Positions 37,001 to 48,792 of a stretch of 64,000 bases of DNA are shown piece by piece. Positions within the stretch are counted from its first letter, which is position 1; the number at the start of each line of letters is the position of its first letter. This DNA is from Apostichopus japonicus (lineage: Eukaryota; Echinodermata; Holothuroidea; Aspidochirotida; Stichopodidae): contig NC_092582.1 of NCBI RefSeq assembly GCF_037975245.1, positions 12,956,077-13,020,076 on the forward strand. Direction: 5' to 3'. Position numbers and translations under genes: made by a program. Under the pieces are notes generated by a model. It was not told the DNA's origin. It saw nothing but the letters and a program-made list of their open reading frames with translations, and made no database searches.

Positions 37001-38705
37001 GTCACTATAAACATGAATTCTAGAGGGCGCCAAAAGGATAACCCAGTTGTCTGTTAGAGGTACAAATGTTAAGTAGAAATGTATGAAAACTAGTATATTT
37101 TTGTTTGTATAAGTATGGTAAAAGTTTGAAAATTCATGCAGCACTGACAAGGAATGTTCCATTTGATAAGTGATGAGACAAGTCAAGAAAAATGTGCCTT
37201 TCTTAAATGACGACGGTTTAAATTGACCGTAATATACAATGGAAGAGAGTTTCCTTTGATTTCCATTGATGCTATTAACTGCAATACCAAATTATTCCAT
37301 TTTAGATTACACCTTAAGTGTTATTATTACATGTCAGTGTGCAACTATGACATCACACAAGTTTGCTTCAAGTTCACTTTTGGTGGAATATCAGATAACT
37401 TCAACTGTCAATATCTCATAAACAGTAAATAGGAATTGAATGCAAATTTCACTAGAATGCTTAGATTATGTTCCTCTTTAACATATCAAAACAAAATTTT
37501 GGCCTGGACTTTTCTTTAAATAACAGACAATTTCACATTAAGATTTATAGCATGCATGTGTGAAGCCTTGGGACTGAACACGGTTAGAAGTGTCAGCATT
37601 TATCCCAAGCTGAACTGAAAGTATATAGTTTTGAATGACAAGATATGTACACACTTGTTTCCAGTTGCACTACAGCCATACTTTTCCCTATGAGACTAAT
37701 AGTGACTTCGCAGGCTTCTCCTAATACACATTACATTTTAAGCACATGTTTAGCAGTTTGTGCATAGAACTTGCCTATCAAATACAATCTTGTCATGTGT
37801 AAATCTGACCATCTGAGCACTACTTCTAATAACCAGCTATTTACTCATCTAGGTAGGTCATATATGCGAAGAAAACTCTCAAGATGAAGAATAAGAAAAT
37901 CTGCAAAGTCCTTGTTGACATTTTAGTTTATCTTCCCAAATAACACATACCAGCCTTATCAGATACGTACCGTAACCATGGTAATCAAATCAAATGGATA
38001 TGAAGTTGTCTATGAAGAGTAGAAATCATCTTTAAAATGACTTGGCGTTGACTTGGCGTTCAGGATGATGAATATCACGAAGACATAGTAAGACGGGTGA
38101 CTGAAAGGTGCCAGAGATTACGTGGCGCCCGACGTGGCGTTAAAGAGGTTCGTGGAATACTCTCCACTGTACAAACTGACAGAGGCAAATAGCATTATTG
38201 CAATGTCTTGCAGGTATCTTTCTTGAAGGCAACTTTCGCTTGATGAGCATCTTCATGTATTTTGGACTTGCCTGAAGGAGGAACAACTCCGCCTCTTCCT
38301 GTGAAATGGAAGTAAAAAAAGGCAGAGATATCTTTGACACAGGTATTACTCTGCATTATTCTGATTATATTAACTGTATTTTGTTTTACAAGAGACTTCA
38401 TGTCTGTCATATTTCTGCTTTTTCTTCTTTTCCCAAGTACAATTTAATTAGCGAACAATTGTCAATTGCACTGGGGGGATTAAAATATGTTTAGAATAAG
38501 GCTTGATCAATACTGAAACAAACAAAATTACTTTGGAGAAACCAGTAAGAATCTTAGTTTAACTAGCCTGCTTCACATGAGGTTTTTGTTGGAAGTTAAA
38601 CATAACTGGCAGTAAAAAAAAAATTCTAAAAGGCCATAATAGTTTCAGCTCTAAATGTGACTGTAACGACAACTAGACAGATGAAAAAAAAGGAAAAAGA
38701 TGATC

Positions 38706-38840
38706 TCATACATCCAGTGTTGAGGGATCCGTGTCAGCTACCAAAGTCTCTGGTGACAATACCCTCAACTTGCTGTCTAGGGTCAGTCTGGAGGTATCAT
38801 CAACCTCTCCGGATACATCAATGTTAATAGTTGATGAAGC
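38706..38840 (-). CDS. Gene B exon 6: terminal exon
   Basis: Acceptor TGTCTCTACAG then a phase-0 frame ASSTINIDVSGEVDDTSRL, then TLDSKLRVLSPETLVADTDP and stop TGA at 38708-38706. It is placed with gene B because of strand, phase match and the good acceptor. The intron from exon 5 is 3.6 kb, so the join needs transcript support. Confidence 0.65.
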   Translation of the reverse strand, partial: ASSTINIDVSGEVDDTSRLTLDSKLRVLSPETLVADTDPSTLDV

Positions 38841-41800
38841 CTGTAGAGACAGAAGGAATGATGTGATTTTAACGTTTTAATGAGATCATGAATACAATAT
38901 CCACATACAGAAGAAATAACTTATTCCCATTTGACAGGTGCTTGAGTTTCCCAGTATACTGAGTAGTACTTTTCATATTTACCTTTCTTTTCAGGACAAT
39001 ACATACTTAAATCTACATGTTCAAAAGCTGTCTCATGAAATGAGAAAACAGAATAAGTTGCTGTCAAGTTTCCAAGGATCCAATATTTCCATGAAAATGT
39101 AATTTGGTGTTCTTTCATTAGTTTAAGAATTGCTCTAGCTCCACAAAAAATTATGCAGTGTGTCACTGTCTGACATGGAATGATGTGATAACTATTAATG
39201 AGATCATCAAGATTGATACAATATCCACAATACAGCAAAAGTAACTTAATTCTCATTTGACAGGTGCTTGAGATTCCCAGTATTCTGAGTAGTGCTTTTC
39301 TCTTTTACCCTTTCTTTTCAGGACAATACATATTTAAATCTACATGTTCAAAATGCTGACTCATGAAATGAGAAAAAAGAAAATGTTGCTGTCAAGTTTT
39401 CCAAGGATCCAATATTTCCATGAAAATGTCAATTGGTATTCATTCATTAGTTTAAGAATTGCTGTAGTTCCACAAAAAATACAAATTTATGCAGAGTGTC
39501 ACTGTCTGACACTGCTAAAGACTACAGCAGAAAGAAAAAAAAATGGTCATAACAATTTCCTTAAGCATCAAATTTTCAAAACCAAATTGTGACAAAGTTT
39601 CACATGCAGCGGCCTAGGTATTTAGGAAAAGAGGAGAAGAAAACTGTGTACCGGTAAATAACAATATCTAAAGATATGTATAGAGATAACAGCATTTCAC
39701 TCGTTAATGAAGGATTTACCACTTAAAGATCCACTTAACCAGATTATGGGTGGAAATATCCATAGGCGAAATGGGTGGAAATATCCATGAAGCAAAGTAT
39801 CAATACACCGTAGATTCCGCAATATAAATATCACTTATGGTATTTTGCATACCAACAGACTGACATCTTTAAATTTTGAGGTATCATAAATGATGTAAAA
39901 ATCACACCCAAATGTCCCTATTTGTCTATAGTTAAGTCTTAAAACATATTCACCTTGCTCCCACCAGTATTTCTGTGCTGTTGTAGAAATTCTTTCATGT
40001 TGGTCTGGTGAGAAAAATGGTTCCATAATTTAAATATTTTTTTTAAAACTAATTCCATCTTATGTTCACACAACAAGTCTGCAAAATTAGGCACTCATGA
40101 ATGTAAGCCAATGTAGCAAGATCTATGCCGGTATTGACTAAATATTACCTTCAAACTACATGACATGTCTGTCACCCCATTATTTCATAAATTACGATGC
40201 AACTATTAAAAAAGTCCTTTTAACGTCATATAAATAAAGCAAACATGAAATCAAACACTATTTTATCCTAAAGTGGCATTAAAACCTGTACTGCATGGCA
40301 AACATTTTATTTGAGAGCTTTAAAGTTCCCTCCTTTTTGGTTTTGAAGTAGTTCATGTTAGTTCTGAATAGTTGATATAATGGCTGGTGTGCTAGACTAG
40401 ATAGTCCAGTCACTTTGACTGATCCACTGTGACCTTTTCTCAAACATAAGAAAAAAATCGCCATAAACTAGCAAATGGCGTATGCATAACATATCAAAAC
40501 TATTCTGTCTCTAAGGTCATCCTTTTTAAGGGATAATGCCAAATTCTTGAACACCAACATTCACACATTAATGAAGCTGTCTAAATACATATATTTATAT
40601 ACCCTACTTTGTGACCTTAAGGAATGTTAACTGATTAACCAGTCTGACAAGTTTAATTCAGGTGTGAAAGTCTTCCGGTCCTATATAAAATGACTTTACT
40701 GTTCTTTGGGTAAAGGAAAATTGAAATAACAAGCCTGCATAGTCACAATCTACACAGTTCACTCCACAATATAGTAAAAGAATTAGCAGTACTCCGGAAA
40801 AGTCAAGAAATAAATATTTAAAAACGATACAATGACAGGTAGACACCAAAATATGGCTACATACTTAAAACTTCAAGACCAAACATAGATAAATATACAT
40901 CACTAGCTAGAAATCAATAGATTTGAAAAGAACTTAATACCCCAATTTGACTGGTAGATGTATTGCCAGTTCATTTAGATTGCTTAAATAAAAGTACAAT
41001 AAATTTGAGAAATCCAATTACAACAGGTTGATAACACTTATCAAGCTAATTGTGACCTAATTTATATAATTGCATGCCAATCTTCACACTTTGATAAATA
41101 GTGATGATGCATATTGGTGGCCTTACATCTGTTCTTTTGCAAGCCTCCAATTTGTAGGCTAAGCGAATTTTGTGTATATTTTTGCTAGTACACTCCACAT
41201 GAATCACATGAAAGGAGTTGTAAAACACATTTTCATCTTCACATATTATGAAATTGCACTCCTAACTCAAGTAAAACATACACCTTGAAATATATACATT
41301 TCTTACCTTGCATTTTTCTAGATCATAATAGATGAAATGTAACTGGTATGTCGGTGGTTAAGGAAAAATCATTTAGGATGTTTATTAATCACTTTGCAAC
41401 AAACTCATTTATTCAAAAGGTATGGTATGAACAAAACTAGTAAATTTTGAGAAGGATACAACTGCTCGAAACCAAAATCCACGGAAGTTGTCTGTTACAC
41501 CGATCAAAACATTGTGCGGGCTTACAATCATATTGGATTGTGCAATACTGGGTTCTGCAGAAGTGGTAAGCTGTTGAAAGATAAGGATAGAAGCAAAATA
41601 TAAGAAAATATAAGAAAACATAATTACCCCTTTAGGGCCGGGAAATATACAGCCTGGGTTAACTTAAGTTAACTGGCCGGTCTGTACGGCCTTTTGTACC
41701 TTTATACTTGCACGAATGCCCTTTAACCTAATGTGGTCGCCATTATGCTATTATACAAAATAGCTAAATAGAATTGATGGCAAAGGCCAAGAAAGATCGA

Positions 41801-44800
41801 TCTCCCAGGCCTGTTAATAAGCATGTTACTGGTAGCTTTGTTTTCCTTCACAAAGTGAAAATGGATAAAATACCAATACTTGAAAGATTGTGACATAATA
41901 GATTTCATAAAAACAGCACAACTAAAAATGATAACGATTTGGAATTATCATAGCAAAGGTGTGATAAAATACTACTTGGTTACAATATGTCAGCATGGGC
42001 ACTCAAAGCAAAACAAAAACCATCCGTAGCAACAGGAAAGTATTCCTTTCAAATATTGTCTTCAAATACATGTCTTCTCACTGCTTGCTCTAATTACCGA
42101 GCAGTATTATTCCAGTACAATTTGAATACGAGATTAGTTTTCTTGGCAAAGATGAAGATTAAGTATTACTATTGGGCGAAAATTTAAGCACGCTTAAAAA
42201 TTGCTAGAAGTTTGCAAAAGTACTTTCCTGGAGGCTTTGATCCTCCAAATTATTCTCGGCAATTGAGAATTACTAAAATAGACGGTTAAATATCTCTGTC
42301 TGAATAACTAAGGATCCTTTTAAATGTGGCAGTGAAAAATCTCTTGAGAAGAAGGGTGACCAATATTTGACTTTCTAGCATAATTGGGGGGCAGCGCTGA
42401 CGACCTTTGAAGAGACTGTAAAGACATACCCGTCTTCTCTGGTAGTATGCGATAAAGTGTATCGTGATGGTGGCTAGGGTGGACAGAATCCAAGATATGA
42501 CCAAGGACCAAACGACGCGGATGCCTTTGTCTGGGTGAGGCTTTGTGAGGTTGAGGACTACTCCACACGTGATGAGAATTGTGACCAAGATACTTAAGAC
42601 CAGATGTAAGTACCAGTTATACCAAACCGAGTACCACCTCATTTTACTTGAATCTAAGATGGCAGTCACAGCGTTGGTAAAGTCCAGTTGAGGAATCTGA
42701 AATTTCAAAATCAGGGCATAATTTATCTAGTATCGCATCACAAAAGTTTTTTTTTACACAGGAACCAGAGTAGTTAGTATGAGACAAAATTTAAGACACT
42801 TCATAACTGATATGCAAAATTTGAACATTATATTATTCCTTGAAAATATGAAATAAACCTTATAAAAGAGTGCAACATTGTGGATAAAAAATTATACATG
42901 AATTTCATAAAAAAAAATAAAAAAAAAAACAATATGATATGTAACATAAGTTTGTTCCATATTCAAGAGGACTTTCCATGTTTTTCCATATGGCTGTCAT
43001 TTTGCACAAAATGTTTTGCAAACTTACTGGAAGAAAATTAAGAGATGAGTAATAAACTAGGAATGAAATTGTTTACTCTTGCAGTGATACAATTATACAG
43101 TTTACTTTTTTATTTTTTATAATTCTGTCATTTCAGGGTTTTGGGTTTGTTTTTGAAATATTCTCTTTTGTTTGATCTCTGCTTGTTTCTTCTTCTTTTA
43201 TTCCATGTTTTTAAATCTCATTTTTCACTAAATGTTTTGCAAAGTTACAGGAACGAAAGAACAGAGGAGTCATACTCATGGAATGAAAACTTATTCTTGT
43301 ACTGATATGGCTTCCTTTTTTTATTTTTATTTATATTTTATTGGTTTGTAAATGTTCTCTATTGTCTGAAACAAACTTCAGTTCCTCTCCTTCTCTCTCT
43401 CTCTTTCTGCAAAAGAGGAAATTTTCGTCAAACATTTTCTTTACAAACGATTAACAGAAAGAAGTACAGGTACACTTCCCTGTCAGAAAACAGAACCACT
43501 TACTATAACGCCTTTCCTGGCCAGTCCAGCTGGACAGTAGACGGTGTCGAACCGTGCTTTACAGAAACAATGTGATGTAGAACTGGATTGTCCTAGTTCA
43601 AGGCCATTCACAAGAGCTGCACAAGATAAAAGGAATCATTAACTGCTACATATTATAGATACATTAGACTAGAATTCAAGCAATTATCCCCCTTTGGTTT
43701 ATCTTGGTCTTCCGTGTCTGTTCTTGCCCAAGACCCTTTGTGGAGTTTTGAAAAAGACTAATCTCTTGCCCTGCAAATACTTCTTGATCAGAGATTACGT
43801 TGTAAGTATGATACATTCATGCGACGATAATGGCCTTAAATTGTAAACAAAATTCTGTTACAAATATTAGCAATCAGTTAAAGAACTGCAACACCAGATG
43901 CACCTTATTTCAACTACTTTGCTGGAGGAACAAGGGTTGTAGGTGTGACTATAAATGAATACTGTCATAGAGTAACAACTTGCTCATTTCACTTTCTTGA
44001 TATAATGAGGAATACCAAACATGCCAGGGCACTACATTACAGTTAATGTGGTTGGAAGCAGAACCATGATTCCGTATCTTAAGTAATGAAATGCCAATAG
44101 CTGCCTTTTAATTAAAATGGTCATGCTATAATTACATCTTGTTGGGGAAATAAAGACAAAAGTCATTTTTTTAAGACTCTATACAACATTTTTGTACCTG
44201 CAAATTATTATTTTGAGACTCAAATGAAGTTGCTAGAGGTATAGAGAGGGAGGGGGGGGGGGGGTGGACGAGGGCAAGTAGTTTATTGTAGCAATCTTGA
44301 CACTGGTAATATGAGAAATTGCTGTCATGTCTGTACAGTGTTAATGCGAGCTATGTACTTAGCTCAGAATAAGATTTACCTTCCCTGCTTCTACTGCTCC
44401 TTGGACTGCCATCAACTGATGAAAAACCTGTTTTTATACAAAATTAGAAGAAAAAAGCAATACTAATTAATGTGAATATCACAGTCATGCGATGGTCTAC
44501 TGAATCAAACCAGTTATTTATGTGGGAGTACACAACTAAAATGCATAGCTACTGTACTATATACAGCAGTGTTACTTAATCTACTTTACGCACCCATAAC
44601 AATTGATGAATAATATCTGCAGGAATGAATCGCACACTTTAAGTGGCCCATATTAAAACCTGATCTATATGACAGTAACATACAGATTTCAAATTGTTAA
44701 CATTAGTAACATTAAAGAGAACAATTCACATCCACCCCCTTGTGAGACTTCCTGACTGAGAGAACGGTTTGTCAATTAGGGAATGTCACTACCTCCTCCA

Positions 44801-47800
44801 TATACCTGGCCAGAAACAGGTTCAAAGGAAAGAGCTGAATTTGAGTTTTAACTTGCTAGAAACATCAATGGGCTGTGTTGAGGTGCTTGGATATGTTTAG
44901 TTTATGGATTTTTTAATAGGTATTCCACCTTGGAATAGGTTCTGTCTTCATCATCCATTTAATATAGAAATGATTGAAAATTATTTTAACTTGCACTTCG
45001 GGTAATACCAATGTTCTTTCCTATAGCATCAGACTCCCTGGGGTTATGCCTTGCACCCGCAGAGGGTGAATGCATACCAGAAGATGCACAGTTGCTATAT
45101 ATTGTGTTATATGCAAAACTGCATTCATTTACAGAATGACTTACATACATACTTTTTGCTGTATTGCGATTCTGTTATTAGCACATCCACTAAACTTTCT
45201 GCAATATATAGGCAAAAATTGTACTATTCTGTAAAGAAAGAACCATTCCATCTTTATCTTTATTGATTTATTTCTTCCTTATTATGTTCCACTTGCCGTA
45301 AACATCACCACTAAGTAAGTTGGTCTTCCATCACGTACACATAACACCAGGGACCACTTGAAATCTAAGTCTACACAGGTATAAATGTAAACACAGTTTA
45401 CAGCCATGAATGAATTCTTAACCATAGACCAACATTCTTAAGCTTCTTATTGAGTTTGCACTGTGAGGGGAACAGGCTACTAGATAAGCCAAACAGTAAA
45501 CAGTTCCTGCCAGACACTGTCAATGGGAAATCTCTCAATTGGCAGCATGGAGTACAGTACACTAGGGACTATTCAAGATGTAAAGTCAAGAAGCAGAAGT
45601 AAAAAAGACTACCAAATGACCACGAGAAATGTAAAACACTGGTCACTTACAATGCCTTAGATGATGTCACTTATGGAACACTTGAAAAGATAAACATTTC
45701 CATGGTATTCATAGTCTGATTCCCAAGGACTGGGATGTTCACAATGTATTCATTGTGGTATAGGCTGAAAAGAGGGCATTCTTTTCTACTGAACTTGAGA
45801 AGCTTCAAGGATTTTAATTTCCTTTCTACTTCCTCTAGAAACTTATAATAAAGTCCCTTTACATTCCTCCCTTAGGAGGGCTGGTACACTCACAACAGTA
45901 TCATCAGGGGAATAGGCTGAAAAGAGGCAATCCTTTCATTGAACTTGGGTAGCTTTGATGGATTTTCTATTCTATTGTCGATTGTTCTGGCCATGCCAAG
46001 CTTGTATATTGACTTGTGAAGTATTCACCTATTGTATTCACTGTGTAAGGCATCACAGCCATTACATCTCAACAAGTCATTAAATGTCAGAGATTGTCAA
46101 TTGTCAAACTATTCACACAAGACAGGAACATAGTACATATCTTCAGTAACCATACCTGCCCCGTGCAAGTTCATTAGTTACTCAAATACTCCTGTATACT
46201 GGATTTGAACAAGAATGTTTTTAAACAAAATTATTCATTCATTCATTTATTTTCCATTTCCTCACAATGTTTATATAATAATAAGACGGTGAAGACAATA
46301 CCATGCAAAGAAAATAATAAGTAATACATCATATAAAAGAAAAATAATGGAAATTACGGAGAGAAAATGGTGGAAGGGCTTGAAAATCGTAACTTGTACA
46401 CGTAGAAGCCCACCAAAAATAAAGATAACATGTATAAAGTATATGGGCATGATTATAGAACATAAGGTGAGGAGAAAATTCATACAGTATGTATTCTACT
46501 GTAAAAACACACACAATGAAATGCAAATTAACTCACTGATTTGAAGGGACCCTACAAAGGTCTGCCAGAATGTGTTGGACATGGCGCTGATGATCGGGAA
46601 GTCGTGGAGAAATTCAGGCAAGTCCACCTCCGTCTGAGTGACCACTAAGACCTTGGTACGATTCGTCAGGTAAGGTCTCAGGGTCTTCAAGTTTTCGTAA
46701 GAACACCAAGGGCTACTCATGAAGTCCGGAGATAACACCAGCACGATCTTCTTAGCGGTCGAGAGTGCGTTGACCACTTTGTCCATCTTGGCAACTCCGG
46801 GGTCTAGTTCGTGTACCATGTTGGCACATTTGAACCCATACGCTGGCGACTCCAGCCTTGATATGACATTGTGTGTCCACTGGTCATCTTCTCCCGCTGC
46901 GCAAAAGAAAGCATGACACTTTTCCTCTCCTTCCAACTTTGCGGCGATTCCACCACTGATGTGCTGATGCGCCTCGTCTGTACTCCTGGTGTCCCCGTCC
47001 GAATCACTACCAGTGGTGGTCATTACACCTCTTACTTGGTCAGCCTCTGGTTTCCAATCTCCAAGAGATCCGGTGTCTCCATCAAGCAATTGTTCTGTAA
47101 TATATGTGATTAAATATATAATTTACATTTTGATTTAAATGTACTGTAACATACTATAATTTGTTTATTTTTTTTTTTTATAATTGTCTGCAGTGGATGA
47201 AACATAACAAAACTCCTTCATATGGGAGCAAATAAGCAGCCCTAACCACACATGGATGTCCAGCTTTGGGAGAATCCAATTACCATATATCAATATGCTA
47301 ATATAAGAGCTAGTTTGAATAATCCAAAGAAGTGCTTTAATATGCAAACTACAGGTTTAATTTTTTTTCAAAGTATACAGTTTGTGCTGCAAGAAAGTGT
47401 AAACTTAATGTAGTTCAGCGAGAGAGAACACGAGTACTGCAAAAATCTTATGTTTTGTCGGTTTCTATCTTACACTTTAGGAGACTGACATGTTTTTTTT
47501 ATCTAAGCAGGAGCTGCTTCACAGGTTGAAAACCATTCAAAAACAGAGGACACATTTGTCTAATAGCCAGATGGTCAACTATGGATGGAGTATAAATAGA
47601 CAGAAAAAAAGTGGGATTAAAGGAAACTGGAGATGAACGAGCTGAAATTCATTCAAGAGAAGGCTTTGAGAAACTAAACATTTATATTCTTATTCCTGTA
47701 GGAGACAATCTGTACTAGATCCCATCCCCCCTCCCCCCCCCCCCCAAGATGGATGAAATGGATCTTACCATTAGCCACAAACAAGGTGGTTTCTTGAGGG

Positions 47801-47844
47801 TCATCATCATTGTGGTTGACATCTGCAGGATAAGGAGTATCCAT
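38706..47844 (-). CDS. Gene B: TIR domain protein with two C-terminal TM segments, 6 exons, about 398 aa
   Basis: Six exons on the minus strand (47844-47769, 47094-46537, 44427-44380, 43616-43504, 42696-42430, 38840-38706) join in compatible phases to one 1197-nt frame. Residues 1-82 are acidic and polar; about 83-208 form a TIR domain with KCHAFFCAAGEDDQW (box 1), HELDPGV (BB loop) and VLVLSPDFMSSPWCSYE, where E159 sits at the conserved WCxxE position. A Ser/Arg linker (213-227) and a Cys-containing linker (228-265) follow, then TM1 about 290-313 and TM2 about 325-348, a basic QRRR, and an acidic 44-residue tail. TIR domains act in Toll/IL-1 type signalling as adaptors, and some hydrolyse NAD. 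The short loop between the TM segments implies a hairpin, with TIR and tail on the same side, probably cytosolic. No LRR, death or Ig domain is seen. I do not recognise a named family with this order. Confidence 0.85.
38880..39515. repeat. Tandem duplication, unit about 317 bp
   Basis: The segment from TTGACAGGTGCTTGAG at about 38932 reappears at about 39249, with shared blocks GGACAATACATA, CTACATGTTCAAAA, CCAAGGATCCAATATTTCCA and GTGTCACTGTCTGACA. It starts just upstream of gene B exon 6, inside intron 5. Confidence 0.75.
39520..42285 (-). other. Rest of gene B intron 5
   Basis: AT-rich sequence without recognisable exon. Short open frames have no splice context. Confidence 0.5.
39740..39790. 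repeat. Short tandem repeat ATGGGTGGAAATATCCAT
   Basis: Two copies, each itself containing the palindrome GGAAATATCC-like core (TGGAAATATCCA). Confidence 0.6.
42286..42429 (-). CDS. Alternative C-terminus of gene B by intron retention
   Basis: If the GTATGT donor at 42429 is not used, the exon 5 frame stays open for 47 more codons (VCLYSLFKGRQRCPP ... LSYSDRDI) to a stop at 42288-42286. The retained tail is basic and partly hydrophobic, unlike the acidic exon 6 tail. Confidence 0.4.
   Translation of the reverse strand, partial: VCLYSLFKGRQRCPPIMLESQILVTLLLKRFFTATFKRILSYSDRDI
42430..42696 (-). CDS. Gene B exon 5: two transmembrane segments
   Basis: Acceptor GAAATTTCAG, donor CGG|GTATGT. Encodes TM1 (HLVLSILVTILITCGVVLNL), a short loop TKPHPDKG and TM2 (VVWSLVISWILSTLATITIH), then YYQRRR. 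Enters and leaves phase 0. Confidence 0.88.
43504..43616 (-). CDS. Gene B exon 4: Cys-containing linker
   Basis: Acceptor ATCTTGTGCAG, donor ATA|GTAAGT. Encodes ALVNGLELGQSSSTSHCFCK then ARFDTVYCPAGLARKGVI. Three cysteines (CFC and YC) lie close together before the membrane segments, and could be lipidated or metal-binding. Function unknown. Confidence 0.8.
44380..44427 (-). CDS. Gene B exon 3: 48-nt Ser/Arg linker
   Basis: Acceptor TATAAAAACAG, donor GAAG|GTAAAT. Encodes SFSSVDGSPRSSRSRE, a possible phosphorylation-rich linker. It enters and leaves phase 1 and is divisible by three, so it could be skipped without frame loss. Confidence 0.75.
45760..45985. repeat. Imperfect direct repeat in gene B intron 2
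   Basis: TATAGGCTGAAAAGAGGGCA and a following TTTC..TGAACTTG..AGCTT block at 45762-45815 recur at 45910-45968 with small indels. Confidence 0.5.
46246..46290. repeat. Dispersed repeat copy shared with 48596-48636
   Basis: TTCCATTTCCTCACAATG followed by TTTATATAATAATAAGAC is identical at both places, 2.3 kb apart. Confidence 0.65.
46537..47094 (-). CDS. Gene B exon 2: TIR domain
   Basis: Acceptor ATATATTACAG and donor ATCA|GTGAGT. A 558-nt exon holding a polar N-terminal part and the complete TIR domain (about residues 83-208). Conserved pieces: DKVVNALSTAKKIVLVLSPD, PWCSYENL, and a final FWQTFVGSL helix at the box 3 (FW) position. Confidence 0.93.
47769..47844 (-). CDS. Gene B exon 1: start codon exon
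   Basis: ATG at 47844, with an in-frame TGA two codons upstream that supports this start. Encodes MDTPYPADVNHNDDD and continues to FVAN. Donor G|GTAAGA leaves phase 1, matching exon 2. The 5' UTR must begin further upstream, possibly with an exon near 51.4-51.5 kb. Confidence 0.8.
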
Positions 47845-48419: not shown

Positions 48420-48792
48420 CACTATCCAACTGGTTGCATTATGTTGCAATCATTTATTAATTGTATTGTATTATTATAGCTAGAGGGATGGAAAACACCA
48501 TACTAGTTTAATGAAGGATCACAATGCCCATTTATTTGTATGGAAAGGTAATACACACTTGTGACAATATCATTATACAAACACTATTTATTTATTTTTT
48601 TTCCATTTCCTCACAATGTTTATATAATAATAAGACACTATCCAACTGGTTGCATTATGTTACGATCATTTATTAATTATATTGTACTATATTATATTAT
48701 TATAGCTATAGGGATGGAAGACACCATACTTGTTTAATGAAGGATCACAGTGCCCATTTATTTGTATGGTCAGGTAATACACACTGGTGTCT
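48420..48792. repeat. Direct duplication of about 150 bp
   Basis: CACTATCCAACTGGTTGCAT through GGTAATACACACT occurs at 48419-48560 and 48636-48785 with a 10-15 bp indel in the AT-rich middle. The spacer includes the repeat also seen at 46246. Confidence 0.75.

Follow-up and report, generated by a model that had tools for sequence, protein, structure and literature searches.

Does the TIR exon on the minus strand of a window of 64,000 nucleotides from the holothurian Apostichopus japonicus (the window being the whole stretch of DNA analysed, part of contig C22 in a source genome whose 35 contigs total 671.6 Mb) belong to the same gene as the two-helix membrane exon located downstream of it, and what protein would such a gene encode? 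The preliminary description had joined six exons in the order acidic N-terminus, TIR, Ser/Arg and Cys linkers, transmembrane hairpin and acidic tail, and had proposed a membrane-tethered adaptor or NADase of an undescribed class. These six exons do join in frame, giving 398 residues and a stop. The minus-strand model obtained here comprises ten exons and 515 residues, is open from the start codon to the terminal stop, and has the domain order acidic N-terminus, TLR/TIRAP-type TIR, short linker and TMEM268. Its exons are the following.

E1, 47769..47844, minus strand: acidic N-terminus MDTPYPADVNHNDDDPQETTLFVAN, including the start codon; 3' end in phase 1; G+C 0.43; donor 4.3.
E2, 46537..47094, minus strand: acidic stretch and the entire TIR domain; phase 1 to 1; GTGAGT donor.
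E3 (tentative), 44380..44427, minus strand: Ser/Arg linker of 48 nt; phase 1 to 1; fits the frame; donor 3.7.
E4, 43504..43616, minus strand: opens the TMEM268 part and contains Cys; phase 1 to 0; acceptor 5.6, donor 1.9.
E5, 42430..42696, minus strand: two-helix membrane hairpin of TMEM268, identified by hydropathy, a structural model and, together with E4, PF14800; phase 0 to 0.
E6, 41460..41570, minus strand: TMEM268 exon (..NVLIGVTDNFRG..); PF14800 match in E6-E8; acceptor 5.3, donor weak.
E7, 41307..41342, minus strand: TMEM268 micro-exon LHFIYYDLEKCK, aligning with human QLWFVYFDLENC; strong donor (6.3).
E8 (tentative), 39954..40004, minus strand: TNMKEFLQQHRNTGGSK; in frame; donor 4.0, acceptor 0.6.
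E9, 38712..38840, minus strand: acidic internal exon; acceptor 9.9; joins E10 in frame.
E10, 38140..38298, minus strand: C-terminal TMEM268 exon and stop (..RHCNNAICLCQFV..); PF14800 positions 250-293; acceptor 8.8.

Exons E6, E7 and E10 were selected with human TMEM268 as a guide; under strict splice-site cut-offs zero exons were listed, and ten further open reading frames of the window gave no Pfam match under E 0.01. An in-frame stop is found two codons 5' of the start codon in E1, while use of an alternative acceptor at 47822 (score 2.8) would turn E1 into an internal exon. The Ser/Arg linker (44427-44380) of the preliminary description kept its frame fit and gained no independent support: E3 showed no homology, has its frame and donor score as its basis, and can be skipped with the frame kept. 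The C-terminal layout had to be corrected, as exons at 41570-41460 and 41342-41307, and probably that at 40004-39954, sit between the hairpin and the supposed acidic C-terminal tail (38840-38706), which is best read as an internal exon (38712-38840) continuing to 38298-38140. The G+C content of the TIR exon (0.51) and of the membrane exon (0.46) exceeds the 0.34 found across 38841-42429, a comparison stretch that includes three short exons of the ten-exon model.

The membrane part had been taken for an undescribed one. Analysis of the spliced model revealed instead that the hairpin belongs to the DUF4481/TMEM268 family (PF14800, 5.4e-21, 75.6 bits, cut-off 25), DUF4481 being reported as the domain of TMEM268, alias C9orf91 (PMC6748091), and the match was still 2.3e-19 when E8 was removed from the TMEM268 part. 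Three separate pieces matched consecutive parts of the profile in order: E4 and E5 positions 11-111 (6.9e-4, 19.5 bits, under the cut-off of 25 when taken alone), E6-E8, extended by three residues from the end of E5, positions 120-182 (8.7e-8, 32.3 bits, the only piece passing the cut-off alone), and E10 positions 250-293 (0.0012, 18.7 bits, under the cut-off). Neither E5 alone nor E6 alone matched PF14800, and DUF4481 was seen only once exons were joined. The hairpin in exon 42696-42430 was confirmed as two hydrophobic stretches of transmembrane length (approximately model residues 294-314 and 326-348 by hydropathy) separated by a short turn, and a single-sequence AlphaFold2 model of this exon gave two long helices with the turn at KPH (mean pLDDT 77); the same exon had no match among PDB sequences at E <= 10.

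The TMEM268 part aligned along its length with human TMEM268, in a sequence that is considered sound since it matched PF14800 at 3.4e-138 across all 293 positions. The alignment score of 133, compared with a mean of 33 (s.d. 4.9, maximum 56) in 500 shuffles, overstates the surprise because E6, E7 and E10 had been picked for resembling the human protein; a better test is given by the Pfam scores. In this alignment the E4/E5 junction falls within one residue of the position of human Ile71, and since human TMEM268 isoforms are reported to differ at I71 -> IQ (PMC6748091), the junction suggests an intron common to both genes. A search of the genome with E5 found a single place at E <= 1e-3. Contig C18 gave a weak hit to DUF4481 (16.6 bits, E 1.16), which was regarded as a chance match, with no more TMEM268 or TIR exons in its flanks; the family search that produced it says little on other copies, because even the exons of the window were missed by that search.

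On the sequence evidence, the TIR and TMEM268 exons probably form one minus-strand gene, a fusion, presumably read as a single transcript. E2 has phase 1 on both sides, E4 is entered in phase 1, and all TMEM268 junctions after E4 are in phase 0, an arrangement that fits the insertion of a TIR exon into a phase-1 intron of TMEM268. The FW motif marks the end of TIR domains, and the frame of E2 reaches its GTGAGT donor right after FW; were this donor unused, the TIR frame would end at a stop at 46496. At the donor the G+C content drops from 0.50 to 0.33 within the next 30 bases and stays at 0.23-0.33 for 120 bases, which makes onward splicing of E2 probable; TMEM268 supplies the next conserved exon of the minus strand. 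Counting against the fusion, G+C returns to 0.43-0.47 at 46358-46417. The splice scores of E2 are weak (acceptor -1.1, donor 1.3); weak sites within the TMEM268 part are the E7 acceptor (absent among acceptors scoring >0), the E6 donor and the E9 donor GTATGA (absent among donors scoring >3).

The alternative is that the locus holds two neighbours on the same strand, namely a soluble TIR-only gene made of E1 and E2 with its own end, and an ordinary TMEM268 gene about 3 kb downstream that starts from a short first exon of its own; the fusion would then be an artefact of the gene model. Such an arrangement would agree with human TMEM268, which has no TIR and 37 residues ahead of DUF4481. E2 and E4 lie 2.9 kb apart, and this interval contains ten possible first exons whose donors are in phase 1, compared with a mean of 3.1 and a maximum of 9 in 60 shuffles; the donor of the best candidate (46174-46156, ATG at 46174, donor 5.4) was equalled or exceeded in 17% of the shuffles. 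An end for the TIR part could be supplied by any of 19 candidate terminal exons (the longest of 56 codons) and by an AATAAA near 46250, but such exons are no commoner than in shuffles (mean 20) and the AATAAA lies inside the dispersed repeat D2. The agreement in frame between E2 and E4, both in phase 1 and expected by chance about 1 time in 3, and the fall in G+C at the GTGAGT donor where the TIR ends also argue against two genes, which we regard as unlikely.

The TIR exon at 47094-46537 stood as described, with Pfam matches to TIR_2 (1e-8) and TIR (6.7e-8), both above the family cut-offs (the two scores are 36.2 bits against 28 and 33.0 bits against 21.3); in the spliced 515-residue model the values were 4.5e-8 for TIR_2 and 2.5e-7 for TIR. 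Comparison of this exon with PDB sequences gave 35 matches at E <= 0.1, of which TIRAP was the best (9.2e-8) and TLR1 the second (4.5e-7), followed by TLR2, TLR10, a metazoan TIR-STING fusion (6wt6, 8.1e-6) and TLR6, with weaker others including MyD88; SARM1 was not among the 35. The predicted structure showed an alternating strand/helix fold of low confidence (mean pLDDT 52), and Foldseek ranked the MAL TIR filament first, a weak match with E 1.2e-3, with zero matches at E <= 0.001. A search of the same genome returned 11 further TIR matches at E <= 10, eight of them at E <= 1e-3, and seven of the 11 form an array on contig C9, where the sole locus checked against Pfam (L004) contains LRRs and a TIR. 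Nine of the 11 loci were compared (L012 being partial), L003 and L013 having been left out as short unrelated frames, probably on the wrong strand; WCSYE and FW were common to the window TIR and the seven C9 copies. With TIRAP and TLRs as the closest PDB relatives, SARM1 absent at E <= 0.1 and these two motifs held in common with the C9 copies, the TIR of the window points to the signalling type. Scans of viral contigs with the TIR exon and the membrane exon found no relatives.

An enzymatic role, in which the TIR would cleave NAD+ as in a SARM1-type NADase while the hairpin holds the protein at the membrane, had been offered beside the adaptor role, and we found no specific support for it. 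The window TIR does contain SPWCSYEN, a WCxxE helix whose glutamate we take to be the equivalent of the catalytic glutamate of SARM1, but WCSYE is also present in the TLR-type frames of the C9 array, the best PDB relatives are TIRAP and TLRs, with SARM1 absent from the 35 matches at E <= 0.1, and the BB loop HELDPGVA retains the Pro-Gly of signalling TIRs, which makes this role very improbable. Hardly credible, finally, is a degenerate locus (pseudogene) whose TIR and TMEM268 exons merely appear intact, for although decay would agree with how far the sequence has diverged from human TMEM268, with the AT-rich E7 (G+C 0.25) and with several weak splice sites, the ten exons share one frame with no stop before the end, nine of the ten have a G+C content of 0.41-0.51, and the DUF4481 matches are collinear.

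The best reading is still, as first described, a TIR protein tethered to the membrane and distinct both from TLRs and from the known adaptors of vertebrates. No LRR match was found in the 515-residue model at E <= 0.01 and the helices are C-terminal of the TIR, so the make-up is not that of a TLR; no death domain was matched at the same threshold, and the make-up is likewise not that of MyD88. The probable role of the TIR-TMEM268 protein is that of a TIR adaptor tethered to the membrane. The two-helix hairpin would anchor it in the membrane with the N- and C-termini both cytosolic, the N-terminal TIR would face the cytosol next to the membrane and could enter assemblies formed by the TIRs of Toll-like receptors or MyD88, and the TMEM268 part would keep the protein beside integrin-type or phagocytic receptors and steer their turnover.

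Human TMEM268 is reported to have transmembrane helices at 104-126 and 130-152, to be located chiefly in the ER and the plasma membrane and to use residues 104-342 in binding the C-terminus of ITGB4 (PMC6748091). Residues 1-152 of TMEM268 are reported to bind the C-terminus of CD11b (PMC11169502); these reports of integrin-tail binding concern mammalian TMEM268 only. Since both binding parts contain the membrane helices, they suggest, and only suggest, that both TMEM268 ends are cytosolic. According to the same CD11b study, TMEM268 shields CD11b from endosomal-lysosomal degradation and aids complement-mediated phagocytosis in LPS-stimulated mouse macrophages (PMC11169502), and for CD11b itself a promoting effect on TLR4 signalling is reported from dendritic cells and not from macrophages (PMC3905776). 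From these reports on TMEM268 and CD11b we infer a tethered adaptor that would link TLR-type signalling to receptor turnover. More tentatively, it is possible that some invertebrate lineage has conserved TIR-TMEM268 as a genuine membrane adaptor, which arose when exon shuffling brought a TIR exon of phase 1-1 into the first TMEM268 intron. Such an adaptor would couple Toll-type signalling directly to the handling of integrins or phagocytic receptors and would serve as a "Rosetta stone" predicting vertebrate TMEM268 beside TLR/MyD88 complexes.

TMEM268 is little studied, and its loss is reported to weaken anti-bacterial defence in the mouse (PMC11169502). A natural TIR fusion, if true, would give it a concrete and testable partner pathway and would represent a membrane-bound adaptor built through exon shuffling; if transcripts confirm the join, TIR immune signalling and the clearance of bacteria by white blood cells, which TMEM268 aids in mice, would be tied in one molecule. 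Titles and abstract openings of the papers listed for DUF4481, TMEM268 or transmembrane protein 268 mentioned no TIR fusion, none of the matches listed for these names paired with the TIR domain contained both, and TIR-TMEM268 was unnamed in the titles and abstract openings listed for invertebrate TIR repertoires, supplementary tables lying beyond the reach of the search. As far as these searches go, the join is a new combination, whereas its membrane domain belongs to a class already known. Novel TIR combinations in invertebrates are themselves a known phenomenon: 28 new ones, 20 of them amphioxus-specific, are reported from amphioxus (PMC2575513), TIRs with armadillo folds, EGF-like or COR domains from Aplysia (PMC9334734), and transmembrane TIR proteins from Hydra (PMC6043800).

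Among TIRs of known structure the nearest by sequence are those of TIRAP/Mal and of TLR1/TLR2. TIRAP is not known to have transmembrane helices, unlike the window protein, and TLRs carry LRRs and one transmembrane helix ahead of the TIR, whereas the helices of the window protein come after it. The TIR-STING fusion resembles the window protein in joining a TIR to another immunity protein family and differs in its partner, as no STING domain was matched in the 515-residue model at E <= 0.01 and the helices following the TIR are of the TMEM268 type. The closest likeness of the membrane part is to TMEM268 (C9orf91), with which it shares most of the PF14800 profile, the two-helix hairpin, the stretches VLxGVTD and FxYxDLxxC, the C-terminal RHxN..CxCQ and apparently the intron near Ile71; human TMEM268, of 342 amino acids with DUF4481 at 38-328, has no TIR, while the protein of the window carries one at its N-terminus.

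A 51-nt repeat occurs twice in the window with 94% identity between the copies, and the first AATAAA seen past the TIR exon lies inside the copy at 46237-46287.

46237-46287 and 48586-48636 (window): 51-nt repeat, two copies

The DUF4481 profile gave a weak match (16.6 bits, E 1.16) at locus L014 of the same genome (G000), covering profile positions 35-103 and beginning close to the position that corresponds to the boundary between exons E4 and E5; no further TMEM268 exons were seen in the L014 flanks.

L014 1501-1707; G000:C18:11951214-11951420: AT-rich, weak DUF4481 profile match

Seven TIR matches were packed into approximately 0.42 Mb of contig C9. The open frames that hold six of these matches are 702-1058 aa long, and the frame of the seventh has 189 aa; L004, the sole array member scanned with Pfam, carries LRRs and TIR in its frame.

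G000:C9:23380720-23804493: TIR array, L004-L010

A further TIR combination within this genome was found at locus L011, where tetratricopeptide repeats (TPR_2, 1.2e-7) precede a C-terminal TIR_2 (1.2e-14).

L011 1-1881; G000:C18:298437-301697: open frame, TPR then TIR, Pfam matches
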